A DNA stretch of 33,967 nucleotides from Myxococcales bacterium. Its GTDB lineage: Bacteria; Myxococcota_A; Polyangia; Polyangiales; Polyangiaceae. Shown here piece by piece: positions 1,576 to 25,716 of this stretch. The stretch lies in the NCBI GenBank assembly GCA_903642325.1, contig CAHJWM010000053.1, positions 1-33,967 of the forward strand. The letters are read 5' to 3'. Made by a program: the position numbers and the translations under genes. Every line of letters starts with the position of its first letter. Positions within the stretch are counted from its first letter, which is position 1. The notes beneath the pieces were generated by a model. That model was not told where the DNA came from. It worked only from the letters and a program-made list of their open reading frames with translations, and did not search any database.

Positions 1576-2892
1576 GTGATCGATTCTCGCGTTCGAGCTC
1601 GTAGGATTTTGTCGCTCGCGGCATTCGCATCCGCGAGCGCGCTCGGCGCGTGGGGGCTCACGACTTGCCGTTCGACGCAAGCGCGCGCGAGCGATGCGCC
1701 GAGCACAATCAGCGCGCTAGGCAGCCCCGGCGCGTACGACGGCGCCCTCTATCGGGGGCTGACCGCTTTTCGCGCATCCGTTTCAGCGCAAGGTGCAGTT
1801 GCCGCGGACAACAACGGCCCATTCGGATTGCAGTGGACCAAGTGCACGAACCTCGCTTTCGATCTGCTCACGGAGCTCGTTGCCGAAGCACTCGGCCTGG
1901 TTGGCCAGGCGGATGCGCAGAACCACGTGCAGACGGTGGTCGAGATGCTCGAACAACTTCCAGCCTATCACGGCATTTTCCCCGAGTTCATCCAGCTGAA
2001 CGGCGGGCCACACGCAGAGGTAAAGGACGGCAAGCGCAGCTACTCGTCGCTCGACTCTGCGTGGGTCACGTTGGCGTTGAGCGTCGTGGAGGGCCGGTAT
2101 GCAGAGCCGCAGCCTGCGCTTGCACGACGCAGCCAAGCGCTGATCGAAAAGCAGGACTACGGTGTATTCGTCGACTCGAATCTGCTACTCGGCAACTTGT
2201 CGGTGGATGCGACGAGCGGTGCGGTCGTGGACAAGTCGACATTCTCATATGGTGATCGCAACAGCGAGGCGAGGCCGCTCGTACTCTCGCTCATTGGCAT
2301 GCACAAAGTGCCGCCGGAGGTTTGGGATACTATGGCTTACTCTTGGGTCGATCGCGCGGGCCTCTCAATTGCTTCGAGCTACCGCTGGAGCGCATTCGTC
2401 GAGCTTTCCGGGCAGCTTTTTTTCGATGAAATGACGCTGGCACCGCGGTCTTTGGCGCGCAGCCACGAAAATTACGTCGCGGCGAGCGCCAAGATTGCAG
2501 AAGCCAAAGGGCAGCGGCTCTGGGGCTACGCGCCGAGCTGCGAACCGCCTGACGGCTACGCTGAGTTTGGGCTCGACCGACCCGACGTCGTGACGCCGTA
2601 CGCTGCGGCAGAGCTTGCCACGACCGGGCTGCCGCTGGCTGCGGCTAACCTTCAACGCGTGCTCCAGTCGCTCGATTGGAGCGGCGCGCCCGCAGCCGAT
2701 GCGCTCGATCCCGTCAGCGGACGCTCACTGTGTACGAGCGCCAGGATGCTCGATCAATCGCTGCTATTTTTGGCGTTGCACGTGGACATCGTGCGAGGCC
2801 TGTCACGGCAAACCGCTTGGTACCCTTCGGCCGAGGCTCGCATTCGGGACATGGATCGCACGCATCCCGCACCAGGGTTGGGTCTCCAGTGA
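1576..2892 (+). CDS. Exported glycoamylase-like protein (PF10091 / GH144 type)
   Basis: A 438-residue protein with a Sec-type signal (RVRARR then a hydrophobic Ala/Leu stretch). The body looks like an all-helical alpha/alpha toroid. Around residues 314-345 the motif LWGYAPSCEPPDGY, followed by a Pro-rich VTPYAAAELATTGLP, matches the WGL-T-x-x-DGP-GY / TPxAA hallmark of the PF10091 glycoamylase family. That family includes GH144 endo-beta-1,2-glucanases and the middle domain of cyclic beta-1,2-glucan synthase NdvB. The end (MLDQSLLFLALHVDIVRGL) also fits that family's closing helix. The GTG at 1576 is used; a strong ribosome site is not visible. The stop overlaps the start of the next gene by 4 bp, so the two are translationally coupled. 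Probable role: periplasmic cleavage or trimming of a glucan made by the minus-strand operon. The exact linkage is inferred. Confidence 0.7.
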   Translation: MIDSRVRARRILSLAAFASASALGAWGLTTCRSTQARASDAPSTISALGSPGAYDGALYRGLTAFRASVSAQGAVAADNNGPFGLQWTKCTNLAFDLLTELVAEALGLVGQADAQNHVQTVVEMLEQLPAYHGIFPEFIQLNGGPHAEVKDGKRSYSSLDSAWVTLALSVVEGRYAEPQPALARRSQALIEKQDYGVFVDSNLLLGNLSVDATSGAVVDKSTFSYGDRNSEARPLVLSLIGMHKVPPEVWDTMAYSWVDRAGLSIASSYRWSAFVELSGQLFFDEMTLAPRSLARSHENYVAASAKIAEAKGQRLWGYAPSCEPPDGYAEFGLDRPDVVTPYAAAELATTGLPLAAANLQRVLQSLDWSGAPAADALDPVSGRSLCTSARMLDQSLLFLALHVDIVRGLSRQTAWYPSAEARIRDMDRTHPAPGLGLQ

Positions 2893-4100: not shown

Positions 4101-4106
4101 CCCTGC

Positions 4107-5348
4107 TCAGTTCACCGCCACTGACACGATGTAACTTACCTCGATTGGAAGTGAAGCACCCCTCGTGTCGGCGATGAAGTCGAGCACGACGTTGTCGATA
4201 TATTCGTCACTGCCGTGAACGATCGCGAGCTCGACCGAGAGCGGGACGGTCGAGGTAATGGCGCTGACGGTGAATGACGGGCGGTCTGCATAATGCGCGG
4301 CATCGTAACGCGCATATTTACGCGGATCTCGCTCGGTTTGCCGAAGTGCGACCGTATCGAAGGGCCCCTCGAACGCGATCCTGTGCCAGGGATCTGGAGC
4401 CGTCGAAGGCTCGGGATTTTCTAGCCTTGTGGTCGTTTCGGTGCCGTCCTCCGAGCGCACGTAGAGCTGATCGGCGTCGTGAGCTTCGTCGTCGACAAGG
4501 TCCTGGGTGTCGGCATCGCGCTTCCAGAACATAGAGCTGAATGCCAGCACTCCGAGTGGCAAGGTGGTGTCGGCATCCGCGCGCGGATAAACCCGTAAGC
4601 GCACCTTGAGGCTCGTGTTGGCGGCGGGTGTGAGCTCGGCCTTCAGCACTCCTTCGAACGCGACGCCGCTGAGCCTACCCACGAAGCTCAAAGATTGCGG
4701 GTCGTGGCCGGTGAGCTCGAGCAGGCCGAGCGAGGGAAAAGTCTCGCCTTGATGCGTGGCATTTTCGGTGGCGAAACGCAGGGTCGTTCCGAACACCGGG
4801 CGCAAACCCAAGTTGACGAGCCGCGCGTACGCCGTGCTCTCGACCTCCAACACTTGCGGGGCAGTTTGGAAAAAGCTGTGCCCGATCTCCAGCGCACTCA
4901 GGCTTTTTGCGCAACTGGGCGGTTCGAGGATGGGCGGCGTGGCCGCCGAATAGTCGTAGTGAAAGCGGTCGTAGGTAATCGGCGCGCACGACTCGTCGCT
5001 CAAGTGGAGCTCGGCCTCGTGAATCTCACCGCGCGGCAGGGCCTTGATCCACCAAGTGTTGTCGTCCAAGAAGTTGCCGGCGCTGCCTCCGGTAATCGCT
5101 GCGTATTCTTCGAACACCAGGCCTTCGGCGGCCTTATTTCCATCAGGGGGTCGGTCAACCTCCGGACAGGCGACAGGCACCTGCTCCAAATATGGTTTGC
5201 GGGCGGCAAGTATCGCCGCCGCGTCGAGCCGCTCGAAGGCGGGGTCCGCTGAACAGTGGTCTTCGGCCGACTCCTCCTGCGCGAGGCACCCTTGCAGGGA
5301 CGAGATCAGCAAGACAATTAGGCAATATCTATCCACAATTGACGTCAT
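4107..5348 (-). CDS. OpgG/OpgD-like (GH186-type) periplasmic glucan lipoprotein
   Basis: Lipoprotein signal with lipobox SLQGC (Cys21); 413 aa in total. Recognisable OpgG/OpgD landmarks occur in order: an early AAILAARKPYLEQ helix and FEEYAAI; PVFGTTLRFATENA (family: GxSxRGLAIDTA); GETFPSLGLLEL (family: GEEFPxFREFWLE); LKVRLRVYPR; LGVLAFSSMFW (family: LGIAPLTSMF); HDADQL at 290-295 (family: HDSDGL); a QTERD segment; YADRPSFTV (family: YERRPSLWVEP); and YIDNVVLDF (family: IHDNIVAFW). The family acts in the periplasm on the osmoregulated glucan backbone. E. coli OpgG is soluble, whereas this copy is lipid-anchored. Its ATG overlaps the upstream gene's TGA (ATGA), making it the last gene of the operon. 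I am sure of the family; activity and linkage are inferred. Confidence 0.78.
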   Translation of the reverse strand: MTSIVDRYCLIVLLISSLQGCLAQEESAEDHCSADPAFERLDAAAILAARKPYLEQVPVACPEVDRPPDGNKAAEGLVFEEYAAITGGSAGNFLDDNTWWIKALPRGEIHEAELHLSDESCAPITYDRFHYDYSAATPPILEPPSCAKSLSALEIGHSFFQTAPQVLEVESTAYARLVNLGLRPVFGTTLRFATENATHQGETFPSLGLLELTGHDPQSLSFVGRLSGVAFEGVLKAELTPAANTSLKVRLRVYPRADADTTLPLGVLAFSSMFWKRDADTQDLVDDEAHDADQLYVRSEDGTETTTRLENPEPSTAPDPWHRIAFEGPFDTVALRQTERDPRKYARYDAAHYADRPSFTVSAITSTVPLSVELAIVHGSDEYIDNVVLDFIADTRGASLPIEVSYIVSVAVN

Positions 5349-8300
5349 TTCATACCCTCCGCGCTGATTGCTGACTGAGCCGCTAGTGCCGCACCCTTTG
5401 CTTCGATCAGCGCCCGCTGTGCATCGAAGGAAACTTGCCGCGCTCGGACTACGTCATCCAGAGTCGTCTGGTCTTCGCCTGCACGGAGGCGGCGCTCGAG
5501 CTCGCCCCGCGCCCGCTCACTCGCTCGCTCGGCTTGCAGCGCAACGGCGTAGCTCTGGCGACGCGCGTACAGCTCCGTGCGCAACAGGGCGTCCGAGCGT
5601 TGGCGCTCGCGCGAGGTCGCGCCTAGCTCCTCGTTGGCCAGCTGCGAGCGTGCCAGCTCCACCCCAACGCTGCCCAGCACTTTGGGCCTAACCGGCACGA
5701 TCATCGATAGCACCCACAAAAGCTCGCCGCTCGAGACGTTTTGTTCAGCGCCCGGGCGACCAGTTTCGCTTCTGATATTTGCCGGGCGCAATTCGACCAG
5801 TCCCGTGACCGGAGATACCACGCGTAGCGCGGTCGCTAAGGCTTCCGCTCGCGCCGCGCCGCGCCGCGCCCTCGCCGCCCCCTCTCGGCTGTTCACCCCT
5901 TCGGAGCCGGCTCTGCTCGGGGCTAGCGCAGCGCCGACGTCAGCCGAGAGCAGCACGTCCGTCTTGGAAGCGTATTCGTCGAGCACCATATCGCTCACGA
6001 GCGCGCCTCGTGCTTGCAACGACGCAAGCTGCAATTTGAGGCGTGACTCCGCCGCGGACCGGCGAACGGTCGCCCGTGCCGAGTCGTTCTGGGCGGCGGT
6101 GACCAGCTCGGTTGCGACGAGCCCGAGCTTGAAGCGAGGCAACACCGAATCTTCGAAGTAGCGGCGCGCTTCAGTCTCCTCTAACGCGCCGAGTCTTGCT
6201 AACTCACGCGCAGTCCAAGTCTGAGCGATATCGCGAAGCGCCGCCCGTGCCGCGGCCGTGCGAGCGGCGCGACGCTCCAGCTGCGCGGACTCGAGAACAT
6301 CGGCGTTCGCCACGAAGGCAACCGCCTCGTCGAGGCCGATTGATGCGCCGAGCCCGAGGTTTGCTTGTAGCGTTCTCGTCGTTGACGGACCGGCGACGCG
6401 CGTCACGGGGTAGGAACCCGCGACGAAGGGTCCGGCAAGGTGCAGCGATGTAACGACCGGCGCGGGATTGGCGCGTTCGGCCTGTCGCGCAGCAGCGTCG
6501 GCTGAAGCCACATCAGCATCGGTCTCGGTCAAAGTGGACAGCGCCGCCCGGAACGTTCCTGACCTCAGGTCAGTACGTTCCAGCCCGGCGCCCAAGGAAA
6601 GAGCTTGCAGGCCAGCCGTGCTGCGCCGTTCGTCATCGTCGAGAGCGCGAGCTTCGGATTCGAGCAGAGCGGCTCGCAGCGCCGCGAGCTCGCGCTGTTT
6701 GAGCGTCGAGCTTTCTCCGGTCGCCCCCGCCTGCTCGGCGCGAACAGACTGTATTCGTGAGTGAATGTCACGTTGAATGCTTGCCTCGACGTTCATCAGG
6801 TCGGCCGCTTCCGCCGCCCTGTGAGTGGCCTGAGCGCGCTGGTCGTCCAGCTCACGGCGTAAAGCGCCCAACCGACCCGTGGCTGCCCCAGCGAGCTCGG
6901 CCGCCCGCACGATTTTCGTCGGTTCACGCGTCGGATCCAGCGCCACGCCTACCCCCAACGTCAACGAGTACGCTCCGCCTAAAAGGCCCTGAGTCGCCTC
7001 GGCCGTCAACGTGACGCTACGGGGCGGTGACGTCAGCGATTCCGCTTGCGCTTCGGTGTAGCCGACCTGCAGCTCTGCGACGCGCTGCGTGAGCGCGCTC
7101 GCGAACCCCAGCAGTTGTTGTTGGGGGATAAAGCGGTCGCGAGCCCAAGCCTCGAGCGCCGCTGGAGTTTCAGCGACGGTGACGCGCGATCCGCGCGGCG
7201 CGCCTAGCTTTTGTGCCAGCATCAGCTCGGCGGCTTCCAGCCGAGCCGCAGCGCGGGCGCTAACGGCAAGCGCGGTGTGAGCCGCGCGCTCTGCGCTTCG
7301 CACATCCTCCGCCGTGGCCGCGCCCTCCGCGAACGAGTGATGCTCCTGTTCTAGGTTCTCGCGGAAAAATGCCGCTCGCAGCTCTGCATGCTGGCTACCG
7401 GCGCGAGCATGGCTGACCTCCAAACGCGCGAGGAGCTCGTCCCACAAAAAGCTCTTCCGCGATAACTCGGCCTGAGCCTGGCGAAGCGCGGATTCGCGCT
7501 CGAGCACATGAAAGCTGCGACCCGTGTCCAATAGATTCATGGACCAACGTCCAAGTAGGCTCGTTTCACGCACCGCTATCGGCGCCAAGCCTGCCCCCGC
7601 CAAGCCGAGCTCCGGGCGCAATTCCAAGATCGAGCTTTCACGCTGAAGAAGCGGACATAAGACGCCCGCTTCGAGCGAATAGCGGAGTCGATAGCTTTCG
7701 GCACGAGCCGCCTGTGCCGCACGCTCGGCTTCTGCGCGTGCGGCATTGACGCTCGGGGCGTCTGCGACCGCGCGCGCGGAGAGACGCTCGACCTCGACCA
7801 TGTCGATCTGACGGGCACGGGAGGTCGGCGGCAGCGCGGTATCCGCGCCACTCGCGGCCGTGAGTGCGATCTGCGCGACGACCGCTTGTTCGAAGACGAC
7901 TTCTCGTTCGAGCCGCGCGTCGGTCAGGGTGCGGCTCGCTTCGGCAAGCTCGGCGGCGGATCGTTCACCACGCGCGAAGCGCCGGCTCACGTCGTCGAAA
8001 CCAGCGCTCGCCGAAACGAGGCCACGCTCGTCGCTCCATAATTCACTCAGAGCGTCCCGAAGAACGCGCGCTTGGTCTGCAATCCGTGCACGCGTCGAGC
8101 GGGCCTGTCGTGCGAGCCATCTGCTCCTCGCCACGCCCTGAGCCGCCGCCGCCCGCAAAAATGGCTCCCCAGGGAACGCATGGAGATCCAAAGTCAACTC
8201 CCCTGTGATGCTCTCCAGGTGAAATGCGCTATTGCCCGATCCGGCAACATCACTCTTCGGCAGCAATGCGACGGCGGCGGCGCGCAGCTCTGGCACATAC

Positions 8301-9127
8301 CAACGCCGCGTTTCGGCTAGGTCCACACGTTTCTGCGCAAGCTCCAAATCCGATTGCTCGACATCGTCGGCTCGAGACGGCGAATCCGCCATCGCCTCGC
8401 GCACCAAGCTCAGCATGGCGTTCAGATCCATGTGTGGATCGAGCCCGCTCGAGTCGTGTAAGGACAGAGAAATGAGCCGGCTCGACGCTCGTTGCCGCTC
8501 GAGCTCGATCTCCGCAAGGGAGCTTCGGAGCTCTTCAACGCGTACTTTAATTAGAAGCTCCTCGCCTCCGCCCTCGGGCGCCGGGAGCTTGCCGGTTCTC
8601 ATGCCATCGACCAGCTCACCCAACTCGGTCAAGTGCTCCTCGACCACGAGAGCTTTGCGCTCGGCCACATATCGAGCAAGGCAGCTGATGAGGGTCGTCA
8701 CCGTCAGCGTGTGCTGCGTTTCAGCGAGCTCGGCATGAGCTTTAGTCTGCGCGGCCCTCGCACTGGCCACGGTCGCCAATTTCTGTAGGGACAGAACCGC
8801 CTGCGACTGGATGTCAACGCGCCAGCGTGGCGTAGAAGCGCCGGGGTCGGAGCCTTTTGCGATTTGCCTCCGTAGCGCGGCCGAAAAGTCCGGTAGCCAG
8901 TCCAGCCAAGCGTCGGTAGTTTGTGCCCCTGCCAGCTCGTAGCGTCGCCGCGCCAATGCGATGTCGCCACCGCGGCGTTCTTCCTGTGCAGATTCAGCCA
9001 GCAACAACCGCCGCAATGCCGTCCGCGAGGGATCAAGTGTGGTCGGCTCGATTGCTCCGGCCCGTGCATGCGAGACGACCAAGCAACACGAAAGTATGCG
9101 CAAGACCCGCGCAGAGATGAGACGCAC
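5345..9127 (-). CDS. Triplicated TolC-like outer-membrane efflux protein (six half-repeats, 1260 aa)
   Basis: A signal peptide (RVLRILSCCLVVSHARAGA) is followed by six consecutive OEP/TolC half-units of about 200 aa. Each is a long Ala/Arg/Glu-rich helix, a short beta-rich section and a second long helix. The beta sections are near residues 77-118, 276-324, 482-540, 704-735, 889-938 and 1109-1150, typified by ITGELTLDLHAFPGEPF and AYSLTLGVGVALDPTREP. A normal TolC protomer is about 430-490 aa with two half-units contributing four strands, and three protomers make the 12-stranded barrel; this single chain has enough for all 12. The GTG at 9127 is used. A TTG at 9133 overlapping the upstream TGA (TTGA) is equally possible, with GGAGG at 9138-9142 serving either. 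Probable role: outer-membrane channel of the glucan locus. Confidence 0.75.
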   Translation of the reverse strand: MRLISARVLRILSCCLVVSHARAGAIEPTTLDPSRTALRRLLLAESAQEERRGGDIALARRRYELAGAQTTDAWLDWLPDFSAALRRQIAKGSDPGASTPRWRVDIQSQAVLSLQKLATVASARAAQTKAHAELAETQHTLTVTTLISCLARYVAERKALVVEEHLTELGELVDGMRTGKLPAPEGGGEELLIKVRVEELRSSLAEIELERQRASSRLISLSLHDSSGLDPHMDLNAMLSLVREAMADSPSRADDVEQSDLELAQKRVDLAETRRWYVPELRAAAVALLPKSDVAGSGNSAFHLESITGELTLDLHAFPGEPFLRAAAAQGVARSRWLARQARSTRARIADQARVLRDALSELWSDERGLVSASAGFDDVSRRFARGERSAAELAEASRTLTDARLEREVVFEQAVVAQIALTAASGADTALPPTSRARQIDMVEVERLSARAVADAPSVNAARAEAERAAQAARAESYRLRYSLEAGVLCPLLQRESSILELRPELGLAGAGLAPIAVRETSLLGRWSMNLLDTGRSFHVLERESALRQAQAELSRKSFLWDELLARLEVSHARAGSQHAELRAAFFRENLEQEHHSFAEGAATAEDVRSAERAAHTALAVSARAAARLEAAELMLAQKLGAPRGSRVTVAETPAALEAWARDRFIPQQQLLGFASALTQRVAELQVGYTEAQAESLTSPPRSVTLTAEATQGLLGGAYSLTLGVGVALDPTREPTKIVRAAELAGAATGRLGALRRELDDQRAQATHRAAEAADLMNVEASIQRDIHSRIQSVRAEQAGATGESSTLKQRELAALRAALLESEARALDDDERRSTAGLQALSLGAGLERTDLRSGTFRAALSTLTETDADVASADAAARQAERANPAPVVTSLHLAGPFVAGSYPVTRVAGPSTTRTLQANLGLGASIGLDEAVAFVANADVLESAQLERRAARTAAARAALRDIAQTWTARELARLGALEETEARRYFEDSVLPRFKLGLVATELVTAAQNDSARATVRRSAAESRLKLQLASLQARGALVSDMVLDEYASKTDVLLSADVGAALAPSRAGSEGVNSREGAARARRGAARAEALATALRVVSPVTGLVELRPANIRSETGRPGAEQNVSSGELLWVLSMIVPVRPKVLGSVGVELARSQLANEELGATSRERQRSDALLRTELYARRQSYAVALQAERASERARGELERRLRAGEDQTTLDDVVRARQVSFDAQRALIEAKGAALAAQSAISAEGMK

Positions 9128-9129
9128 TC

Positions 9130-12345: not shown

Positions 12346-12347
12346 TT

Positions 12348-15300
12348 CTAGCGAACCCCCGTGCCCGGCTCGGCGCGGCGCGAAAAGACACTCCACGGCC
12401 GCGTCTTGGCGAGTTGTGCGGATGCGCCACGAAGGCTGGTCTGACCGTTGACCGAAGGACCGAGCAGCCGAACCGCGCGAAGCGGCTCGCCCGCGAGTGT
12501 ATTTGCGCGACCGGGGTTCGCAACGATCCAAAATGGCAGCGCGCCAAGTGCAAGCGGAAGAGCTACGCCGGCGACGCGCAAACCACGCCCGGCGCGGCGC
12601 AGGTACTTCGGAAGGTTCCGTGCACCGAGCGCGGCGAGAGTCCCCAGAGTAAGAACCACAAGCAGCCAAATAAAACTCTGCCAGAGTGCCTCCGAGTAGT
12701 CTCGGCTAGCGGCCACATAGAGGGCGCCCGAGCGACGCGCTATCTCCTGCACCAACCTGACTTGACCATTGAAAGAGTCGAATTCTCCCTCGAGGTCGAG
12801 CAAACGTTGTCGTTCGGCGCGGACGCTCTTTCCACTCGCCTCGCCGGTCCGGATACGTTCGCGATAGTGCGTCAGCCTTCGCTCGTAATTGCGTACCGCC
12901 TCGGTATAGGGATTCCTTCCGATAGGCTTTCCGTCGAGTCCGACCTCACCATTCTCGATCAGCCACCCGACCCATGCGCCGAGATCGCGCGTTCCCGTCT
13001 CTCGCAAAAGTAGCGACGGCAACCGCGACTCGAGAAATTCCCCGACCTCGTCGCCCACCGTGCGGGGCAGGATGCGATGTAACCGTGAGTCGGCTGGCAC
13101 CGTCGCCGGATCATCCTCGTCCAGATCTCGGTCGAACAAGATTTTGTACGCTTGTTTGAGGACAAACGTCTGAGTCCAACTCTGCAGCCCGCGCTGCACC
13201 ATCTTGAGCCGACGGAGCAATTCAGTGCCGGGACGGGCTTGCTGCTCCGTGCGCGCGAACGAGCTGAAGGCATCGTAAAATGGCACACCAGACTCCAAAC
13301 CGGGAATGAAGCCTAGGCCGCCTCGGTAATCATCTTGCACACCGGGCAGGAAGCTCGCAACGCGACGCGTGGCGGCTGCGCTCTGTTCCGGTGTTGGGTA
13401 CAGGCGGTCGAGGACATGGAGTTTGAATTGCGCGATCGCAAATTCGACGCCATCCGCCAAAAACGGATCCTGTTGGCTCAGTCGAGCGAGCGCTGTGTCG
13501 AAGCCCGGCGTGTGGCGAACGAGCGATGCGGCATCGAAAAATTCACGCAAGAAGGCGCGAAAACCGCCGAACCGCGCGAACGCGGCGCGCGCGTCGGGCG
13601 CCGCGCTGTTCGAGAATGCAGCCTGCTTCAAGAGAGCGAACGTGCGAGAGAGCGCGATTAGCTTGCCACGCGAACGCTTCACGAACTCGCCGCGCTTCTC
13701 GAACCACCCCGCATACTCCGATGAACGTTGCCACGCCTCGTACCCAGGGTCCGAGGGTTGCTTGGCACCGGCCTGACGGTCCAATGCAGCAAGGCCCCTT
13801 CGATACTCTTCACGCATGTCGGCGCGGTTACGAAGCTCGTTGAAGATCTCGAAGAGGGTAACGACGTAGCTTTGACCTTGACCGATTTCTCCCGCGTAAA
13901 GCACCTCGTACAAGGCGAAGTCGGCCACGACGTCGTCGTCCTTCACGTCTGGGACGCTGAGGGCGTTTGCAGATAGCCCGCTCTGCTGCGCGCGGCGCGT
14001 GTTTTCCTGTTCGGCGTCGCGTCTAATCGCTTGCTCGTAATACTGAAGCTCTTCCTCGGGGAAGCTCTGACGCACGAGTGCGTAGATCCGATTCATGTCG
14101 GCCAGAAACTTGGCTTCGAGCAGCTGCACCGCGGCCGCCGGAAAGCTCGGATCGTCCAAGCGTCGTCCCGTGAGCAACGCCTGCTTCGTGGCGATGGCGG
14201 CCAAGCGGTCGGCAAACCCTGCGCGCGGCGAGTGGTCTTCGCTGGCGACGATGTGAAGCGCTGGGAAGCGGTCAGCCAATGCCCGCACCAGGGCCCGTAC
14301 TCGCACGAGTGCGATGACCGAGTCCAAGCTAGGCGGAACCTCGGGCACGAACTCCTTCATCAAGAACAACCCGTCGCGCAAGGCCTGGAAGGCCACGACG
14401 CGATTCGAAGACGGCGTACGGCCCGTTTGCGCAATCATGATCGCGCGCGTGTCCGAAAGGACATCGCACGGCAAATCGTCGCGTTCGCCAAGCTCGCCCC
14501 GGCAGCTCGGGGCCGGGGTTGCATGGTCGAAGCGTGACGAGGCCTCCCCCAGCAAGGCATCGACCATCGGTATGTCGATGAACGTGACGTATTTCCAAAC
14601 GTCATCCCGAAAGTCGGGGCGCTCCGCCGCCACCACGAGCGACTCGACGAAACCTTTCGCCGACCACGGCACGTTCGGCAGTCGGCGCGGACCCTCCTGT
14701 CGAACCGCGACAATGCGCTTGGCAACGTCCGTTGGATTCGCTTCCTCACCGTAGGCGATACGGATTTGCGCTAGGACGTCGGAGAGAACGAGGAGAGCGT
14801 TTTGGGGCAAGAGCTCGCGGTCTTCCAGGGCCAGAACGTCGGCGTCGGCGACGGTCGTGACGGCTACGCCGCGACTGGCAGCGAGCTTACGCTTGAGCTC
14901 ACTTTGCGAGTCGCTTGCGACCAACTCGACGAACGCCTCTGGCAGCGCCGCACGCCGCTGCGCAAGATCACTTGCGACACGCCAGGCTTCCTTGCGTACG
15001 TCACGCAGTAATTGGAGCTCCGCACCGGAGCTACGCGCTACGAACAGCTCGGTCTCGACCGTCGAGCCATTCTCCCAGTCGAAATGAGGGCCCTCGGCGC
15101 GCATCGCGCTCAGCAGCGTTCCGAAGTCGCGCGCCAAGCCGACGGCCCACGTGGCCGTCTCTCGATCTAGCGGGCCTGGGTCGATGGCCCCTGCCCAGCG
15201 CCGTACGCGCTCCTTGTCCCACGGGTCGCCGCGCTGCATTGGGATCTGCCCTTCCTCTCCGGCGCTCAGCACGAGGCTCGAGAGCGCCATGAGCGCATTC

Positions 15301-18300
15301 ATGGCGGTCGAGCGTGAGCTGCGGGGTTTCGCGCCGGTCTTCTTTTCTAGCCTAGACGTCTGCGTATCGATGAAAACGCGGAGCGCGCGGTCGTTGGGCG
15401 TGAGCATCGCGACGTCTCGCTTCGAAAGCTCGTCGAATTGCTCGAGCACACCGGCCGCGGCGAGAGCATTGGCCAGGGACCACTCGGGGTCGAATTCACG
15501 AACCGCCCGGTATAAGTCCCAACCTCTGACCAGAGACAGCATCAGATACGATTCGATGATTCCTTCGCCGTCCCAGTACAAGGCGGGATAGTCCTTGGCG
15601 GCCTTCTCGTGCAGCAAAGACAAAGCGTCGCCCAACTTGGCCGCGCCAGTGGAGTCTATTGGCAAACCATTTCGAGCCGCCGCGTCCCAGAGCTCGGCTA
15701 GAGCCAACGTAGCGTTGGCGCGGCGAATGAGTGGGTCGAAATTTGGAGTACCCGTCTTTTCGGCAATGCGCCGCTCGACCAGCGACTCGAACGCGCCGGA
15801 CGGGACCACGTGTCTCGTGCTCAAATCTTCCGCGCGAGACAGCTGGCGGTCGAAGCGTTGCCAGAGCGTAGGCAAAGTGAGCCCCTCCAGCAGCTGCAGA
15901 TTCAGAAAATATTCGGCGAAGCCCGGAACACGCCAAGGCAAGTGAGGCCAGCGCTCGAGCCCAGAGCGCGAAAGCTCGCCCCATGCCTCGGCGATGTCTT
16001 GAACACGAGCCTTCTTGGCGAGGTGGTGGCGGTCGAAGTTGTTTTGTACGACGCGTGCTAGCGCGGCTACGTTCCACCAAGCGAAGAAACGGCGCGCCTC
16101 CGGGCTCCGGCTCGCCCTGCCCTGCGTCTTGGAGAACGCCGCGTCCGTGAGCTCTTGAACGATGGGCGGAGGAGCTTTACCCATCGCGTCATTTGCCGCC
16201 TCGAACACAGGCGCGAAAGCAGTCATGAACTCGGCAGGAGTGCGGCCGGTCTTACCATTCGCACTGGAGAAATAGGCAGTTTGGCAAACGAACTCAGCGA
16301 CTAGATCAGCGCGAGCGGGGACAGCTGGGTAGTGCCGCGGTAGCTCTCGCCACACTGATAGCAAATCACGCCACAGCTGCTCGGGCGCGATCACGGGTGC
16401 GCGACGCGGACCGGTCGCGGCAATTGCCTGTTCCTCGAGCTCGTTTCGGAATCGGTCGTAGCCGTCGGCTAGCTCGCGATAGGTCTCGCTCGCATCGATC
16501 AGTACGAGCCAGTCCAACGCGCGACGCTGCAGGGGGTCGAAGGCGTCGTCCGGGTAGCGAGCGTGCGATATTTCGGAGATCAGCTCTCGATCCTCGGCAT
16601 CACCGGGCAGCGGCGTGTTGGCGCCAGAACGCGACGCGATCTGAGCGATTCGTCCAGACATGGTCTGGGTCCAGAGCCGTGCCCTCAGCAAATCCGAGCC
16701 GGCATCTGGCGTATCCGAGCCGCCTGGGTCCGCCCCTTCCACACGAAACATCTGCGCGAGCGCGCCGCCGATTCCGGCCCGTTCGCGGGAACGCAACGGC
16801 GCGAAGGCGCCGTCCACGAGCCGCATCACGTCGCTAAGCTGCTGAAGGCTCGGCAAGTTCGTCGCGAGCGCCACCGTGAGTATCTTCGACGCGATGAACT
16901 GTTCGGTTTCTAGTCCTTCGAAACGGCTGCGAGCCTCCTCGCTGTCGCCCCAGTCGAGGGTCAAGCGATCGCGTTCCTCTACCTCCAAACGATCGCGGAA
17001 CGCCTCCCGCACATGAGGCGCAATCGGGGCATCGTTCCAGTGGGCGTTCACGTAGTCGAGGCGCAGCCGCCGGGCGAGCTGGTCGAAGCTCAGACCGTAA
17101 AGCAGAATGTGGCGTGCAACTTGGAAAGCGCCGCTCGGAGCCCCGGCCACGCTTTCGCGCACGGGGCCGAGAGGAACATTGGGAAACTCGCGCGACCAAC
17201 GCTCGCCCACCTCGAGCTGCGCCGCGACGAAGCGTTGCACGTGCTCTTCGTTTGGCTCGAGCCCTAGGCTCCCCGCACCATCGATACCGTCGAGTAAACG
17301 GGCGAACCGCTGCGCTGGCGTCACGTCGCCTTGACGTGCGGCCGGCACAGCGTCCCAGAGAGCTTTGATTTGTTGAAAACGGTGTACGCGCGCCATCTCG
17401 ACGAGCGGCAGGCGAGCACCGCGAGCGTCTGCTGCGCCTAGCTTCGCCAGCTCCTCACGGTCGATCCACGGAAACGACGCGCGTTCCACGAAGCGCACCT
17501 GCTCCGCTAGCTCGGCGGCCGATAGGATTCTCGACGACATGGCGCGCGCGTTGCGACGAGCCGCCAAGACCGCCGCCAAACGTTCGTTCTGAGCTGGTGC
17601 CGGAGTCACGTACGGCTCCGCCACCGATAGTGTGAAGTCTCGTCGTGGTTTGTTGGTTGGGATTCGTTCGGAGACAGGCAACGCATACAGCTCGGGCAGC
17701 ACCGGCGTATCGCGACGCGCCATCGGCTTCGGCTTCGGCGAAGGGATGCCGCGCAGCCCGCGAACGTCCAGCACCGGCCCCTCTGCCATTCGACGGAGCG
17801 TCAGTTGATTGCCGGCGGCGCGAAGCAGCGGCTGCGGATCGACGTCTCGCGTCAGCTTGAGCGCCGTGCCGACAGACGCATACACCCGAAGCTCGACTTC
17901 CGGTATGCGAAAGCGCGCTCGGTCAGCGGCAAAAAAATGCTTCGCGCGGCCCCGCACGGCTGGCATCAGCGCAAGCACGGCGGCAACGCTCAGTACCGCG
18001 CCGACCAGTAACTTGGGCCGCGGCGCCGACTTCGCACTCGGCCCGATACGTTCATGACGACGCCGCTCAGCCTGATGATAGCTTGGAAAAAACGCGGCAA
18101 ACCCGCTCGTGGCGGTCAAGAACAACGCGACCCACCCCGTCGATGCTTCGAACGCTGGCACGGGATAGAGCCCGGCCGCCAACAAGCCCGCCGAGACCGC
18201 GAGCCCCAAAACCCCAACCAGCGTCAATCCCCACAGCTCGCGCCGCGATAACTCGTATTGCGGTTTACCACTCTCGACCGCGTGCGGCAGGGCGGCGTAC

Positions 18301-19298
18301 CAGGCGTAAAACCACGCAGTCAAAAACGAGGCCAGAAAAACACCGAAGCTGTTCAGGCCCAACAGGTCGAGCGGCGCACCGAGCAGGATCAACCAACACA
18401 GGAACAGCAGCGCGCCCAACCCAACCTTGGCGGTGGGCCCGTAAACTTCGATGAACTCCGACACGGGCCAACCGCGCATGTCTTGCCCGGCGCTGACGGA
18501 AGATGCCTTCCATTCCAGCGCCTTGCCGCGGCGCACCTGCCAGAAAGACCAAAAGATCTTGAGCGGGTTGATGACCAGATTGGTCAGCCCGATCATGGTA
18601 TTGATAGCCACCGCAGCCAGCCCTAAAACGAGCTGTGACAGCACGATACCCGGCAGCTCCAGCAAGCTCGAAAGGCGATCTCCCTGCCAACGGATCTCCC
18701 GCAGTTTGAGCCAACGATAGCGAACTGGCTCCCAGAATCGGTCGAAACCGATAATGGCAATCATCGAAGCCAGCTGCAGAACGAGCGCCAGCCGCTCGAA
18801 GCCCGCGTGAGCGCGCGTTCTCAACCAAAACGCGCTCGTGAATAGAATGAGTCCCAGAAAGGCGGCGTCGGCGAACACCCGGCGGAACAGCTGGGTCACG
18901 TGGAACTGCGCCGACGGGAAGAGCTCACGCACGTAGTGAAACGCCGTGCCGAGCATCTGGATATCCCCGGGAAACCAACGGAGATTACGGGTCAGGGCGC
19001 TCGTCGGCGAGAGCAAATCGCGTTCGCCCACGCTCACGCTTCCGTTCAAATAGCCGAGGGCATGGCGGATGGCACGCTGAAGTCTGCCTCGTCGATCGGC
19101 GTCACGGGGCTCGAACCCTTCGCGCCGAAAGACCCGGGCCGGCAAAAATCCTCCGTTTTCGTAGCGCTCTAGCGATGCATCGCCATTGTCGAGAAGCCTT
19201 ACCCGGTAAACTTCCGTGAGCTCGCCCAAGGTAACGCAAAGAATTTCTTCGGAAACCAATCCCAAGCCTGAGGTGCCAAGTTGTTCGGCGGAAGCCAC
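12348..19298 (-). CDS. Giant OpgH-like membrane/periplasmic repeat protein (2316 aa)
   Basis: Residues 104-114 (RNLRWFPGDIQ) match the Q/R-x-x-R-W motif of processive GT2 glucan synthases (OpgH RDRRWCHGN; NdvB RWIRGDWQ). Residues ~142-410 resemble the membrane C-terminus of OpgH: ELPGIVLSQ, NLVINPLKIFWSFWQVRRGKALEW (family: APIxMLFHSxFVxxxLLGRxxGW), then paired helices and LTAWFYAWYAALPHAVESG. A further helix at 430-448 leads into about 1750 residues, almost all helical and probably periplasmic. Between ~875 and 1730 there are degenerate repeats built from two blocks: E-K-T-G-x-x-P...R...AL..L, and (Y/W)PxLPW...GF.E..L. Two helices (~2206-2226, ~2242-2260) and a short tail close the protein. 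The catalytic GT residues are in the preceding gene. An ATG at 19388 would force a 70-nt overlap with that gene; the GTG at 19298 has AGGA 6 nt upstream and leaves a 20-nt gap, so I chose it. Confidence 0.72.
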   Translation of the reverse strand: MASAEQLGTSGLGLVSEEILCVTLGELTEVYRVRLLDNGDASLERYENGGFLPARVFRREGFEPRDADRRGRLQRAIRHALGYLNGSVSVGERDLLSPTSALTRNLRWFPGDIQMLGTAFHYVRELFPSAQFHVTQLFRRVFADAAFLGLILFTSAFWLRTRAHAGFERLALVLQLASMIAIIGFDRFWEPVRYRWLKLREIRWQGDRLSSLLELPGIVLSQLVLGLAAVAINTMIGLTNLVINPLKIFWSFWQVRRGKALEWKASSVSAGQDMRGWPVSEFIEVYGPTAKVGLGALLFLCWLILLGAPLDLLGLNSFGVFLASFLTAWFYAWYAALPHAVESGKPQYELSRRELWGLTLVGVLGLAVSAGLLAAGLYPVPAFEASTGWVALFLTATSGFAAFFPSYHQAERRRHERIGPSAKSAPRPKLLVGAVLSVAAVLALMPAVRGRAKHFFAADRARFRIPEVELRVYASVGTALKLTRDVDPQPLLRAAGNQLTLRRMAEGPVLDVRGLRGIPSPKPKPMARRDTPVLPELYALPVSERIPTNKPRRDFTLSVAEPYVTPAPAQNERLAAVLAARRNARAMSSRILSAAELAEQVRFVERASFPWIDREELAKLGAADARGARLPLVEMARVHRFQQIKALWDAVPAARQGDVTPAQRFARLLDGIDGAGSLGLEPNEEHVQRFVAAQLEVGERWSREFPNVPLGPVRESVAGAPSGAFQVARHILLYGLSFDQLARRLRLDYVNAHWNDAPIAPHVREAFRDRLEVEERDRLTLDWGDSEEARSRFEGLETEQFIASKILTVALATNLPSLQQLSDVMRLVDGAFAPLRSRERAGIGGALAQMFRVEGADPGGSDTPDAGSDLLRARLWTQTMSGRIAQIASRSGANTPLPGDAEDRELISEISHARYPDDAFDPLQRRALDWLVLIDASETYRELADGYDRFRNELEEQAIAATGPRRAPVIAPEQLWRDLLSVWRELPRHYPAVPARADLVAEFVCQTAYFSSANGKTGRTPAEFMTAFAPVFEAANDAMGKAPPPIVQELTDAAFSKTQGRASRSPEARRFFAWWNVAALARVVQNNFDRHHLAKKARVQDIAEAWGELSRSGLERWPHLPWRVPGFAEYFLNLQLLEGLTLPTLWQRFDRQLSRAEDLSTRHVVPSGAFESLVERRIAEKTGTPNFDPLIRRANATLALAELWDAAARNGLPIDSTGAAKLGDALSLLHEKAAKDYPALYWDGEGIIESYLMLSLVRGWDLYRAVREFDPEWSLANALAAAGVLEQFDELSKRDVAMLTPNDRALRVFIDTQTSRLEKKTGAKPRSSRSTAMNALMALSSLVLSAGEEGQIPMQRGDPWDKERVRRWAGAIDPGPLDRETATWAVGLARDFGTLLSAMRAEGPHFDWENGSTVETELFVARSSGAELQLLRDVRKEAWRVASDLAQRRAALPEAFVELVASDSQSELKRKLAASRGVAVTTVADADVLALEDRELLPQNALLVLSDVLAQIRIAYGEEANPTDVAKRIVAVRQEGPRRLPNVPWSAKGFVESLVVAAERPDFRDDVWKYVTFIDIPMVDALLGEASSRFDHATPAPSCRGELGERDDLPCDVLSDTRAIMIAQTGRTPSSNRVVAFQALRDGLFLMKEFVPEVPPSLDSVIALVRVRALVRALADRFPALHIVASEDHSPRAGFADRLAAIATKQALLTGRRLDDPSFPAAAVQLLEAKFLADMNRIYALVRQSFPEEELQYYEQAIRRDAEQENTRRAQQSGLSANALSVPDVKDDDVVADFALYEVLYAGEIGQGQSYVVTLFEIFNELRNRADMREEYRRGLAALDRQAGAKQPSDPGYEAWQRSSEYAGWFEKRGEFVKRSRGKLIALSRTFALLKQAAFSNSAAPDARAAFARFGGFRAFLREFFDAASLVRHTPGFDTALARLSQQDPFLADGVEFAIAQFKLHVLDRLYPTPEQSAAATRRVASFLPGVQDDYRGGLGFIPGLESGVPFYDAFSSFARTEQQARPGTELLRRLKMVQRGLQSWTQTFVLKQAYKILFDRDLDEDDPATVPADSRLHRILPRTVGDEVGEFLESRLPSLLLRETGTRDLGAWVGWLIENGEVGLDGKPIGRNPYTEAVRNYERRLTHYRERIRTGEASGKSVRAERQRLLDLEGEFDSFNGQVRLVQEIARRSGALYVAASRDYSEALWQSFIWLLVVLTLGTLAALGARNLPKYLRRAGRGLRVAGVALPLALGALPFWIVANPGRANTLAGEPLRAVRLLGPSVNGQTSLRGASAQLAKTRPWSVFSRRAEPGTGVR

Positions 19299-19304
19299 GC
19301 GAAA

Positions 19305-19308
19305 TCCT
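19305..19308 (-). promoter_or_regulatory. Ribosome binding site deciding the giant gene's start
   Basis: Minus-strand AGGA lies 6 nt before the GTG at 19298 and just after the upstream TAG (19321-19319). The alternative ATG at 19388 has no comparable site and overlaps the glycosyltransferase gene by 70 nt. Confidence 0.5.
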
Positions 19309-19318
19309 GAACGGTTAT

Positions 19319-22141
19319 CTAGAACTTGATCGATGATATGAGGCGCTGTGTCGTCGCCGCGAGGACTTGGGCGAGAGGCCTCCGCCATGCAACTGACCAG
19401 TTGACAGCCGGTTGCAGCTGACGCCGTTGTACCGTCGCGTGTACTCGACTGGCACCGTACAGCGCTTCGGAAAAGCCACCCAGACGCCCGGCGGCCCCGG
19501 CAACCAAATACGATTGCTGGAAGTCATGGCTCAGCGCGTGCGCCGGGTTCAGCACCTCACGTGCGTAGTGTGCGAGGTAGGCGCGCGGGCGGTGTAGCCA
19601 CTTACCAAAGGCCGCCGAAGAAGACGCGTACACCGCGGCCTTACTGCGGCTATCGGACACGTTGTGACAGTCACGAGCGATACGAGCACCGAGGATATAT
19701 TCCGAGGTGATGGCGGCGCCGCGGTGTTCGGGCAGAGTTACATTGATGCGCGGGACCCCAATTACGATGTGGCGGTTCTCGGGGTGCAGAAAAATTGCGA
19801 TGCCTTTCTCGAGCTCGCCTGGACCGAAGTCGTTCTTGTCGTCGAGGATAGCGCCCACCTCCGGCACGCTCGCGACGGGGATATCGTAGCCCGCCAGAAT
19901 GGCAGTTTGGATCTCCTCGTTCGTTCCACTAAGACCAGTATAACGAGCGAAGTTCCCGCGAACGCCGACGAAGTTCGGTCGCGAAGGGTCTTGAACGTGT
20001 TCTCCTCGACTGCGATCGAGGTACATCGTGGGGCGCGTCTTGCCCGCAACGATCAACTCTTGGACCGCGATGTCGTTGCCGACTTTTTTGAAAAAATCCC
20101 CGTTGATCTTGGCGGGAACTACCGTGAGGAGCAGCTCACGGTTGAGAGTGCGTAGCTCGTCGGGAGTGAGTGAGGCCCGCTGGCGAGCGCGCTCGAGCAA
20201 TGCCCGAGTGCTGGCCGTTGGGCGGAGCTCGGGCGGCACCGAAGCGAGCTCGACGTCGCCAAACGCTTCGCAGAATTTGCTGTCCGACAGCGCATGGTTG
20301 AACGCTCGCGCGAAGTCGCGTGCCAAGCGACCCTCCCCAAGCTCTGTCGACAGGTAGCCCTTAGCGGGAAATTCGTCTTCGGCGAAGCGCCGTTTGAATT
20401 CGGGGAGAGCACGCACGAAGTCCTTGTCCGCGGCGTCGAATGCTAGCAGGCGTGAGTTGAAGTTGTACCACTGGCCACCGCGCAGCAAATGCAAAAAACC
20501 TACTTGGCCAGAGAAGCATTCATCCGAGTACTGCTGAAGCTTGCCGACGTGATCGATCTCGTATTGGACGGCATCGGGATCCTTGGTGTTGCTACAGAAC
20601 AAGAACACCGGCTGAAATTTTGGCCCCAAGTGAGACAGTGTGTCTTGCATGGCCTCCAGATTGCGACGCAAGTAGATGAAAGCTTGGCTGGCATCTTCAC
20701 CGACCAGCTCCCATATCTTCTCGTCATCCGCGAGCAAGCGGATGATCACGCGTGGAGCGTCGATCAACACTTCGGCATCCAGCGGGAATTTGGCGCGGTT
20801 TCGAGACAGCTCGCTGGTCAACGCCGCTTGAATTTGTAGCAGTCGCTCTGGGGTCTCGCTCGAGGCGAACTCGAGCACGGTATCCTTGTTTCCATCACGT
20901 ATCGCAAACGGAACGACTTTGATACTTGGTGCGCCAACACGGCCGAGTGCGCCGTGGATCACCGCCTGTAGGTTGGCCCAGGCGGGATTGGAGGAAAACT
21001 TCGGCACGGTAATCGGAACCCGAAAAATTCCTTGGGCAGGAACGCACGTGTCGAGATACCGCTTTACGTCGACCAGCTTGTGCCCTGGGCTGTCCAGCAA
21101 CAAATTGAAGGTGCTGATATGAAGCTTCTGTACGACAGGCTCGATCACGTACAGATTCAGCGCCAAAAGCGCGATGCTCAATACGAGGTAAGAAGGATCG
21201 AAAGTCGCGAGGAAGACGTACGCCAGGATCGCTCGTCCGACGAACATCCCGTACTCGAAAATATAGGTCAATTTCCCCGGCACGAGGCCCTGTGGAAGCA
21301 ATGCCTCGGGTTCGCCAGCCGGCTGTTGCAGCTGTTCGAGCACGCTATCGTAAACGTCGCGACCCATCTGGCCGGACACGAACATGCTTCGCCAAGCTTG
21401 GGAAAACTCCTCGACCATACCGGCTTGAATGTCTAATCGCCGGCGGAATATGCGTGTTTCGAGCACGCCGATCTCGGCGCCCAGCGCGAACGCCTGGCGA
21501 CCGTAGGTGGAGGCCGAGCTGTCGGCCGCGCCCAGCAGCCGCCCGGCATGAAGCATTAGCTTGCGTCGCTCGTCGAGCAACGAGCGGCGCGATGCTTGAA
21601 GCACGCCGAGGGCCGCATCCGCAGCTTCCACGCGCAGGCAAAGCCGTTTGAGCTCACGCTTCAGCGCTATCGCACCGCAGGCAATGTGGGCACCGACGGT
21701 GTTGTAGCCGCGCGCCGGCTGATTGAGGAACTCTGCAAGCCAGCGTGCCTTTCCGCGAAGCAGCGAGGCGTTGTCACCAAAGAGCCACGGGGCGTTGATT
21801 GGAACTCCGAAGAGCGCCGCAACGAATAGGGCCACTCGGCTACCCGCTCGGACTCCGAGCGTCGTCAACAACACGCAGACGGCAAAACCGATCAACAGTG
21901 AAGGTCGCCGTGGAAAGGTGCCTGGCTCCGATGCGCCAAAAGCCGCCGCCACCAACCAAAATCCGGCCAAAATCGCGAGTACGAGCGGGACCTTGTTTAG
22001 CCAGCGCCGCGCCTGCCTTCGCGGCGCTCCGCGGACGTCGCACAGGGTATCGGCGTATTCGTAACTGCTCGCCGAGCCCGCGGCGGACTCCACGTCGCGG
22101 AGCTCTTGCAAACCGTCTTCAGTTGATTCTCTCGTCCACAT
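19319..22141 (-). CDS. OpgH/NdvB-like glucan glycosyltransferase core lacking its R-x-x-R-W segment
   Basis: The ATG at 22141 is preceded by GGAGAG 4 nt away; a GTG 24 nt further upstream is less well placed. The 940-aa protein has helices at ~51-69, 80-98, 100-118, 293-313 and 316-336, a helical region between, then a GT2-like core. Core landmarks, compared with OpgH and NdvB: VFLFCSNTKDPDAVQYEID (512-530; family: LSDTxDPxxxxxE); MYLDRS then NFVGVRGNFARYTG (706-736; family: YRRR..KAGNIADFxRRWG); AILDDKND (764-771) at the position of LDADS/LDSDT; HIVIGVPRINVTLP (791-804; NdvB: LQPRVSVSLP); and NPAHALSHDF (865-874; family: ILSHDF, the catalytic-base motif). It ends before the R-x-x-R-W motif, which is found in the next gene 20 nt downstream. 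Predicted reaction: processive polymerisation of UDP-glucose into a periplasmic glucan. The family is convincing but diverged; the linkage is inferred. Confidence 0.7.
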   Translation of the reverse strand: MWTRESTEDGLQELRDVESAAGSASSYEYADTLCDVRGAPRRQARRWLNKVPLVLAILAGFWLVAAAFGASEPGTFPRRPSLLIGFAVCVLLTTLGVRAGSRVALFVAALFGVPINAPWLFGDNASLLRGKARWLAEFLNQPARGYNTVGAHIACGAIALKRELKRLCLRVEAADAALGVLQASRRSLLDERRKLMLHAGRLLGAADSSASTYGRQAFALGAEIGVLETRIFRRRLDIQAGMVEEFSQAWRSMFVSGQMGRDVYDSVLEQLQQPAGEPEALLPQGLVPGKLTYIFEYGMFVGRAILAYVFLATFDPSYLVLSIALLALNLYVIEPVVQKLHISTFNLLLDSPGHKLVDVKRYLDTCVPAQGIFRVPITVPKFSSNPAWANLQAVIHGALGRVGAPSIKVVPFAIRDGNKDTVLEFASSETPERLLQIQAALTSELSRNRAKFPLDAEVLIDAPRVIIRLLADDEKIWELVGEDASQAFIYLRRNLEAMQDTLSHLGPKFQPVFLFCSNTKDPDAVQYEIDHVGKLQQYSDECFSGQVGFLHLLRGGQWYNFNSRLLAFDAADKDFVRALPEFKRRFAEDEFPAKGYLSTELGEGRLARDFARAFNHALSDSKFCEAFGDVELASVPPELRPTASTRALLERARQRASLTPDELRTLNRELLLTVVPAKINGDFFKKVGNDIAVQELIVAGKTRPTMYLDRSRGEHVQDPSRPNFVGVRGNFARYTGLSGTNEEIQTAILAGYDIPVASVPEVGAILDDKNDFGPGELEKGIAIFLHPENRHIVIGVPRINVTLPEHRGAAITSEYILGARIARDCHNVSDSRSKAAVYASSSAAFGKWLHRPRAYLAHYAREVLNPAHALSHDFQQSYLVAGAAGRLGGFSEALYGASRVHATVQRRQLQPAVNWSVAWRRPLAQVLAATTQRLISSIKF

Positions 22142-22145
22142 TTTT

Positions 22146-22151
22146 CTCTCC
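22146..22151 (-). promoter_or_regulatory. Ribosome binding site of the glycosyltransferase gene
   Basis: Minus-strand GGAGAG followed by AAAA and the ATG at 22141. It favours this start over the in-frame GTG at 22165. Confidence 0.5.
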
Positions 22152-22171
22152 AGCACAGCGGGCACGACAGC

Positions 22172-25204: not shown

Positions 25205-25716
25205 GACGCACTCCGCACGCAACCGCCGAACACCCGGCGCTTCACTTTCATTGATTGGCGTAGCGGCGCGGAGGCGCCCGGCCCTGGCCGCAGAGCGACT
25301 GTGCCTGCGGTCAGCTCGCGCCCCGTGCGTGCATCCACCAAGGCGGGCTCGATCACCGCGCCCGACACGGGGTCGACCAACTCGAGTGGGGCCCCGCCCG
25401 GCGAAAGCCAACGGCCACCCCACGCCGCGAGCAAGAGCAGCACGGGTAAAAAGTCGAGCCCCTTTTCCGTGAGCTCGTATTCTTCACGCGGCGGGTGCGC
25501 TTCATACTCACGGCGCACGAAGAAGCCGCTTTCGGTGAGCGCGTGGAGGCGCTTGGCCAACGTCGTCGGCGATGCGCCAAGGCTTGCTTGGAACTCCTGA
25601 AAGCGTTTCGCCCCGAGCAGCGCCTCGCGCAAAATCATTAGACTCCAACTGTCGCCCACTTCTTCGACGGACCGGGCGATGTTGCATTCCATCGCGGCAA
25701 AGCTCTTTCGTTGCAA
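25201..25716 (-). CDS. HxlR-family winged-helix transcriptional regulator
   Basis: A 171-aa protein starting at a TTG (25716). The N-terminus MQRKSFAAMECNIARS is the usual opening of this HxlR subgroup, which supports the TTG over the ATG at 25692. The winged helix is evident: GDSWSLMILREALLGAKRF, LGASPTTLAKRLHALTESG, HPPREEYELTEKG. Cys11 sits where redox- or electrophile-sensing HxlR proteins (HypR, QorR type) carry their reactive Cys. A tail of about 60 residues after the domain (from WLSPGGAPLELVDPVSG) is unusual and may be a small ligand or zinc-like module. It is translationally coupled to the ketosynthase gene, so it probably controls that gene and itself. Confidence 0.85.
   Translation of the reverse strand: MQRKSFAAMECNIARSVEEVGDSWSLMILREALLGAKRFQEFQASLGASPTTLAKRLHALTESGFFVRREYEAHPPREEYELTEKGLDFLPVLLLLAAWGGRWLSPGGAPLELVDPVSGAVIEPALVDARTGRELTAGTVALRPGPGASAPLRQSMKVKRRVFGGCVRSAS

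Follow-up and report, generated by a model that had tools for sequence, protein, structure and literature searches.

The question raised by this locus is whether a set of genes resembling those for bacterial periplasmic glucans (OPG) is joined here to an outer-membrane channel in a single system, and what such a system would do. An earlier note had described a diverged OPG locus with its own channel, packed in two converging units. The window, by which we mean the whole stretch of DNA that was analysed (33,967 nucleotides), is a complete contig (C53) of a draft genome of 5.83 Mb with a completeness of 98.97% and a contamination of 3.49%. Gene limits were derived from the ORF listing, from translation, and from inspection of a codon model and of start sites, and start codons were read from the sequence. 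All motifs quoted in the earlier note were found within positions 1576-22141, and the two tightly packed converging units were borne out. The five genes on the minus strand (22141-4107) meet at junctions of -70, +2, +2, and -4 bp, so they overlap or nearly abut. The two genes on the plus strand (1576-4100) overlap by 4 bp, and 6 bp separate the stop codons of MdoG2 and MdoG1 (Table 1). The locus seems to be a rare cluster that joins diverged beta-1,2-glucan-type enzymes with a fused TolC-like channel.

Table 1 Features of the cluster and its neighbours in the window. Genes of each unit are given in gene order, with motifs placed below the gene that carries them; neighbouring genes follow.
Feature	Position	Strand	Description
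Transferase part 1	19319-22141	minus	about 940 aa, residues numbered from 22144; motifs (residue): PVFLFCSNTKDP (512), VRGNFARY (728), ILDDKND (766), ALSHDF (870)
ALSHDF motif, part 1	19520-19537	minus	
Giant	12348-19388	minus	transferase part 2 plus repeat segment, 2346 aa
RNLRWFPGDIQ motif (R..RW..GD.Q)	18957-18989	minus	giant aa 134-144
Epi	9130-12345	minus	about 1,070 aa, secreted, possibly lipidated
TolC-like protein	5345-9127	minus	about 1,260 aa, N-terminal hydrophobic stretch, six OEP repeats
MdoG1	4107-5348	minus	OpgG/OpgD (GH186)-like, 413 aa, probable lipoprotein (LQGC)
GA1576	1576-2892	plus	PF10091/DUF3131-type secreted protein, lipobox LTTC
MdoG2	2889-4100	plus	MdoG1 paralogue, probable lipoprotein (LTSC), T at general-acid position
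GH19 chitinase-class protein	53-1375	plus	directly upstream of GA1576
KAS	23958-25757 (with the stretch just upstream)	minus	neighbouring gene
Diguanylate cyclase	26701-29130	plus	CHASE3-PAS-GGDEF, 4.5 kb from the cluster; might supply a c-di-GMP signal to it
Putative secreted esterase	30215-31561	plus	

The GC content of the contig (0.63) was compared with that of 18 partly overlapping stretches from eight other contigs of the genome (0.63-0.67). In two of the seven other genomes of the genus, the best match to the neighbouring KAS gene has 69-70% identity, compared with 48% for the paralogue in its own genome. Stretches of 26.7 and 24.7 kb from those two genomes, which extend 8-9 kb past KAS on the cluster side up to the contig ends, match the window only at KAS and just upstream of it (68-69% DNA identity). 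Since the GC content fits, KAS has relatives in the genus and the match there is confined to KAS and its immediate upstream stretch, the contig most likely belongs to its genome and the cluster most likely sits in a variable region. Among the other genes of the window, the GH19 chitinase-class protein was recognized through PF00182 (6.7e-39) and the putative esterase through PF00756 (1.3e-13). Rfam yielded no match, and PHROG yielded none for four proteins.

Judging from its sequence, MdoG1 is a clear OpgG/MdoG relative and a putative beta-1,2-glucanase that keeps the three catalytic positions of GH186. The motifs LGVLAFSSMFW, HDADQL, and YADRPSFTV are all located in its gene, and it matches the Pfam family MdoG with an E-value of 4.7e-19 (69.1 bits, cut-off 25). 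MdoG2 scores 12.3 bits against the same family, under the cut-off, and is recognized as a paralogue of MdoG1 (1.0e-46, 34% identity over the match and 32% in a separate alignment). The two OpgG/OpgD-like lipoproteins proposed earlier are thus paralogues, with only MdoG1 passing the Pfam cut-off. A profile made from both proteins retrieved two distinct sequences from the PDB at E<=1, both of them OpgG (1txk, 9.4e-4; 8ip2, 0.0021). MdoG1 and MdoG2 both stop about 110-130 residues short of their OpgG relatives; the absent segment is presumably the C-terminal Ig-like domain with Loop A of OpgG.

OpgG and OpgD are described as glucanases of the OPG pathway, tested members of GH186 as acting on beta-1,2-glucan, and the catalytic residues of the family as D300, R359, and D388 in EcOpgD numbering (PMC10514313). 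In an alignment with seven of the eight fetched OpgG relatives, MdoG1 retains these positions as D291, R356, and D385, and MdoG2 keeps the D and the R, with the acid replaced by T. The acid position was mapped through the single D-to-N difference between 8ip2 and 1txk, which aligns with MdoG1 D385 and which is taken to be the D361N mutant of PMC10514313, and the other two positions were mapped by conservation. With MdoG1 as query, relatives were found in at least 8 other genomes of 377, which is a lower bound for the family.

GA1576, in which LWGYAPSCEPPDGY is located, had been called a PF10091 glycoamylase-like protein. Pfam gave no direct PF10091 match to it or elsewhere in its own genome, the family being present in 18 of 188 genomes, and DUF3131 reached 0.0021, under its cut-off. 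The assignment holds by an indirect route: GA1576 matches two standalone proteins from the phylum, at 4.9e-27 and 8.1e-20 and with 26-30% identity across 353-373 aa, the better of which itself scores 1.7e-18 to PF10091. Two of the five PF10091-locus proteins tested matched GA1576. The strongest PF10091 protein among them (L047) gave no BLAST match, and the other two non-matching proteins (L052 and L059) were poorly read frames. GA1576 also matches the middle domains of NdvB proteins (up to 6.7e-4), and hhalign with the NdvB middle domain scored 35.2 versus at most 24.5 for 13 other queries. We regard GA1576 as a probable (alpha/alpha)6 glucanase or transglycosylase from the GH144/GH189 group; the GH144, GH162, and GH189 enzymes discussed in PMC11842490 act on beta-1,2-glucans. 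The neighbourhoods of its two matches (32 and 22 kb) contain no other relative of a window gene at E<=0.05. The genes of these two standalone PF10091/DUF3131 proteins, at L104:6378-8069 (G201:C10) and G244:C40:10146-12002, have a MalK-type ABC ATPase beside them in one case, and a TonB receptor with a possible binding protein nearby in the other; they perhaps mark loci for beta-1,2-glucan uptake.

An OpgH/NdvB-type transferase had also been proposed. Its motifs are present and correctly ordered, and membrane helices follow RxxRW, but the motifs are distributed over two ORFs, not one: LDDKND and ALSHDF are on the ORF ending at 19319, and RNLRWFPGDIQ is on the neighbouring ORF, which encodes the giant protein. 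Ahead of the motifs of the GT region, four TM segments are predicted in part 1 (aa 52-122 and 306-324). The distance from LD.. to LSHD is 104 aa in part 1, 101 in five OpgH proteins and 112-113 in five NdvB proteins. Among the 17 GT84 references used for the motifs, 10 contain the LD..-LSHD pair, which the other 7 did not fit, 15 contain LSHD and 16 the RxxRW pattern. When each protein was shuffled 20,000 times, LD.. followed by LSHD[FL] at 80-135 residues arose once, a somewhat optimistic figure since the LD.. pattern had been widened to admit the LDDKN of the window. LSHD[FL]-type motifs alone arose 37 times, R..RW..G[ND].Q three times, and the combination of LSHD and R..RW..G[ND].Q did not arise at all. 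LD.., LSHD[FL], and [RQN]..RW..G[ND].Q occur in GT84 order, but across two polypeptides, and LSHD and RxxRW are about 183 codons apart in different frames here, versus 34 residues in nine NdvB and 40 in six OpgH references.

Profiles were built from six OpgH and ten NdvB proteins of the same phylum. A combined GT84 HMM matched aa 131-333 of the giant with 8.7 bits (best of 100 shuffles, 5.8), from ALTRNLRW to beyond LEWKA, and HMMs made from NdvB or OpgH only gave no match over shuffles for this RxxRW/TM/LEWKA region. Part 1 matched no Pfam family, its score with the NdvB-only HMM was within shuffles, and the OpgH-only HMM gave -0.7 bits, the same score as the best among 100 shuffles. Aligned by hhalign, part 1 scored 26.2 with OpgH (controls up to 23.5), in a register that we read as right. 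With the GT84 domain of NdvB the alignment was off register, at 22.6, below its own reversed control of 27.3. Six PSSM tests on part 1 were mostly within shuffles; one of them beat all 60 shuffles, at the wrong place. Single-sequence models computed with no alignment were poor (mean pLDDT 41.5 and 41.9) and had no PDB match at E<=0.001. In the model of part 1 only about 100 residues reach a block pLDDT of about 50-85, and Foldseek returned no glycosyltransferase for part 1 among the 50 matches listed. By motif statistics, the transferase is a GT84-like enzyme and not a proven member of GT84. Two further observations concern part 1. Its best-predicted piece (20690-20989, minus strand, block pLDDT up to 85) is modelled as a small alpha/beta domain that precedes the GT region and that, in Foldseek, weakly resembles designed proteins and TcpA. 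In the ORF 19319-22165, the N-terminal TM region (aa 19-82) matches the NCBIfam SCO2584 spore-wall family at 3.8e-4, a score well short of the cut-off (21.2 of 80 bits).

The two halves might instead belong to a single gene that a frameshift in assembly or sequencing has disrupted, an explanation that we find rather doubtful and that is compatible with any other reading of the locus. The ORFs do overlap by 70 bp in different frames, and between 19,502 and 19,286 the codon model gives no positive window in any frame before that of part 2 takes over. However, an in-frame GTG at 19298, preceded by AGGA and just past the stop of part 1, is an alternative start for part 2, the giant. The other junctions of the operon are also tight, and the roughly 145 extra residues from LSHD to RxxRW would not be explained by a frameshift alone.

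The giant protein had been regarded as periplasmic. This description probably applies to a segment of about 1,760 aa, whereas the N-terminus is the second half of the GT84-like transferase. A TM scan gave the order RNLRWFPGDIQ, seven TM segments (aa 171-478), LEWKA, the segment of about 1,760 aa free of TM helices, and two C-terminal TM segments. Within the long segment, self-alignment revealed tandem repeats spaced about 123 aa apart at roughly aa 1008-1490 (score 35.3 versus about 20 in four shuffles), with a weaker unit at aa 1552-1584. A seven-copy repeat was considered and rejected, as leave-one-out HMMs recovered three units (1147, 1266, and 1570), missed two and placed two at shuffle level. 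At the thresholds used, searches of protein families and of the PDB returned nothing for the giant except a single NCBIfam row at chance level (0.42).

The claim of a TolC-like protein was confirmed, with a Pfam OEP score of 24.7 bits (cut-off 22), for a chain about three times the usual length. When it was cut in sixths, the first (2.3e-4), second (0.0023), and last (2.3e-5) matched Pfam OEP, and the third, fourth, and fifth did not. We then used an HMM built from 18 repeats of the nine other OEP proteins of the same genome (three segments were cut at a stop), with bias correction off throughout, controls included. It found six in-register stretches, at aa 57-193, 257-431, 449-646, 722-839, 846-1041, and 1086-1243, with a total of 126.5 bits; the best of 20 shuffles reached 41.6 and the reversed sequence 41.0. 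Stretches 2, 3, and 5 are strong alone (41.1, 24.3, and 28.2 bits; best shuffled domain 10.3), stretches 1 and 6 (8.4 and 5.2 bits) are backed by Pfam, and stretch 4 (6.2 bits) rests on spacing. In hhalign, stretch 2 was clear, 1, 3, and 5 were weak, and 4 and 6 were unsupported. The nine other OEP proteins gave two matches each, in frames of 428-604 aa. Comparison of the chain with itself, made with no OEP profile, was not significant, and the full-chain model, computed with no alignment, was too poor to show a barrel; TolC, OprM, and MacA were among its weak Foldseek matches (E 0.8-3), which were given no weight. The presence of six OEP repeats is well supported by these sequence comparisons.

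Outer membrane factor protomers are reported to have two repeats and to work as trimers (PMC8277102), so that six repeats amount to one whole trimer. The channel is probably a pseudo-trimer made of a single chain, a fusion of three TolC subunits that are normally separate. A survey gives 472+/-30 aa as the length of the TolC/OMF family and reports fusions for other families (PMC4827864). The literature searched yielded no fused or single-chain TolC; one paper merely contains the words 'monomeric TolC'.

Epi matches PF06662, the C-terminus of C5-epimerases, at E 0.0083, under the cut-off. An identity as GH94 was rejected, as hhalign of Epi to the GH94 domain of NdvB stayed at control level; neither this alignment nor Pfam detected a GH94 in the window. 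The only match to Epi in 376 other genomes of the phylum (G375; 1.8e-5, 76 aa) has a stop inside and was set aside.

The transferase has no convincing relative outside its own genome, while ordinary OpgG-OpgH loci and fused NdvB proteins occur in the phylum, the latter in other families and with 2,762-3,439 aa. No match to the transferase was found in 143 other genomes of the order, no relative of its C-terminal 593 aa in the 316 other genomes of a class sample (317), and only one doubtful fragment in 376 other genomes of the phylum, these three sets overlapping. The fragment (G169; 6.7e-4, 138 aa, three stops) was dropped. For the N-terminal 529 aa of the giant, 107 other genomes of the family gave three spurious matches (E 1.4e-4 to 7.6e-3): two were of low complexity, in frames without Pfam families, and the third had no BLAST match at E<=0.01 once fetched. 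Exact 8-residue patterns, a weak test, found nothing in genome contigs, and scans of viral contigs and plasmids were also empty.

Like the OpgGH operon, the cluster has an OpgG-type protein with the three catalytic positions, the GT84-like order of motifs and membrane helices after RxxRW. Unlike it, the cluster distributes the synthase over two genes with an added giant segment, includes PF10091-like and TolC-like genes, and encodes OpgG-like proteins that have lipobox-like starts and lack the C-terminal part. With NdvB, ChvB, and Cgs, in which GT84, cyclase, and GH94 are fused, it shares the GT84-like motifs, LEWKA after the TM bundle, and in GA1576 a relative of the middle (cyclase) domain. 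In contrast to these proteins, the modules are on separate genes, as the earlier note had stated: an OpgG/GH186-type protein and its paralogue, a PF10091-type protein, GT84-like motifs and a TolC-family protein in one operon pair. GA1576 is, moreover, secreted and not cytoplasmic, whereas all soluble domains of Agrobacterium Cgs are described as cytoplasmic (PMC10901819). The channel resembles TolC/OprM outer membrane factors (TCDB 1.B.17) in its OEP repeats and N-terminal hydrophobic stretch and differs from them in having six repeats instead of two. GA1576 resembles standalone PF10091/DUF3131 (GH144-like) proteins, whose fetched neighbourhoods differ from the window in holding no other relative of its genes. 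The description as a diverged OPG locus was incomplete, as ordinary OpgG-OpgH loci in another family of the same order look different, and the six-repeat channel and the two-gene split of the synthase had been overlooked. Overall, the earlier interpretation is partly supported, and its observation of the gene set is confirmed.

Around the observed gene order and the homologies of MdoG1, MdoG2, GA1576, and the channel, we propose, at about even chances, a dedicated trans-envelope machine that would make, trim, and secrete a beta-1,2-glucan-type polymer. Part 1, with the sugar-nucleotide side, and the N-terminus of the giant, with the RxxRW helix and the TM bundle, would form one GT84-like processive synthase, which would elongate the chain in the cytoplasm and pass it through the inner membrane. 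The tandem-repeat segment of the giant, anchored in the inner membrane at both ends, might guide the chain or bridge to the channel. MdoG1 would cut or remodel beta-1,2 linkages, MdoG2 may act as a pseudo-enzyme that binds the chain, and its further processing may fall to GA1576 and Epi, both as lipoproteins. The product would leave through the TolC-family protein, whose six repeats could build a complete tunnel of 12 strands and 12 helices from one chain, not three.

This machine is favoured by the packing of the operon, the homology and catalytic positions of MdoG1, the homology of GA1576, the order of the GT84 motifs with the GT84 C-terminal half in the giant, the six OEP repeats, the TM layout, and the fit of the contig to its genome. 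The profile tests on part 1, the poor models, the LSHD-RxxRW spacing, the absent acid of MdoG2, the failure of L047 to match, and the secretion of GA1576, set against the cytoplasmic domains of Agrobacterium Cgs (PMC10901819), count against it. A more specific arrangement is put forward only tentatively: a single-chain pseudo-trimeric TolC would be docked by the giant, which would serve both as one half of the inner-membrane synthase and as the periplasmic bridge, so that a single assembly would carry out synthesis and export through the two membranes with no separate adaptor. No HlyD/MFP-type adaptor was found among the 15 ORFs scanned with Pfam.

The secreted polymer could also be another glycan, perhaps one with uronic acids, made by a GT2-like synthase, with the OpgG- and PF10091-like proteins recruited to new linkages. 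We consider this unlikely, even though all proteins are strongly diverged, the PF06662 match of Epi might hint at uronic acids, MdoG2 lacks the general acid, and the nearest matches of GA1576 are standalone proteins whose substrate is unknown. MdoG1 keeps its three catalytic positions, and those members of its family that have been tested act on beta-1,2-glucan, as do the GH144, GH162, and GH189 enzymes treated in PMC11842490. It is likewise improbable that the locus is a diverged periplasmic OPG system, with the glucan retained and the TolC-like protein serving another substrate or the relief of excess glucan: six of the eight fetched loci of MdoG1 relatives do carry an OpgH-type ORF, as in ordinary OPG operons, and OpgG and OpgD belong to that pathway (PMC10514313), but the gene for the channel is flanked by Epi and MdoG1 within the operon and overlaps MdoG1 by 4 bp, which argues for one pathway.

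The literature searched yielded no outer-membrane exit dedicated to OPGs or to cyclic beta-1,2-glucans. If the proposed trans-envelope machine is real, the combination of a GH186 protein, a PF10091-type protein, a GT84-like synthase, and a TolC-family duct would be a candidate for such an exit, and a sugar that normally stays in the cell envelope may be secreted here. A natural single-chain TolC, if confirmed, would permit asymmetric mutations and would help to ask why these channels are trimers.
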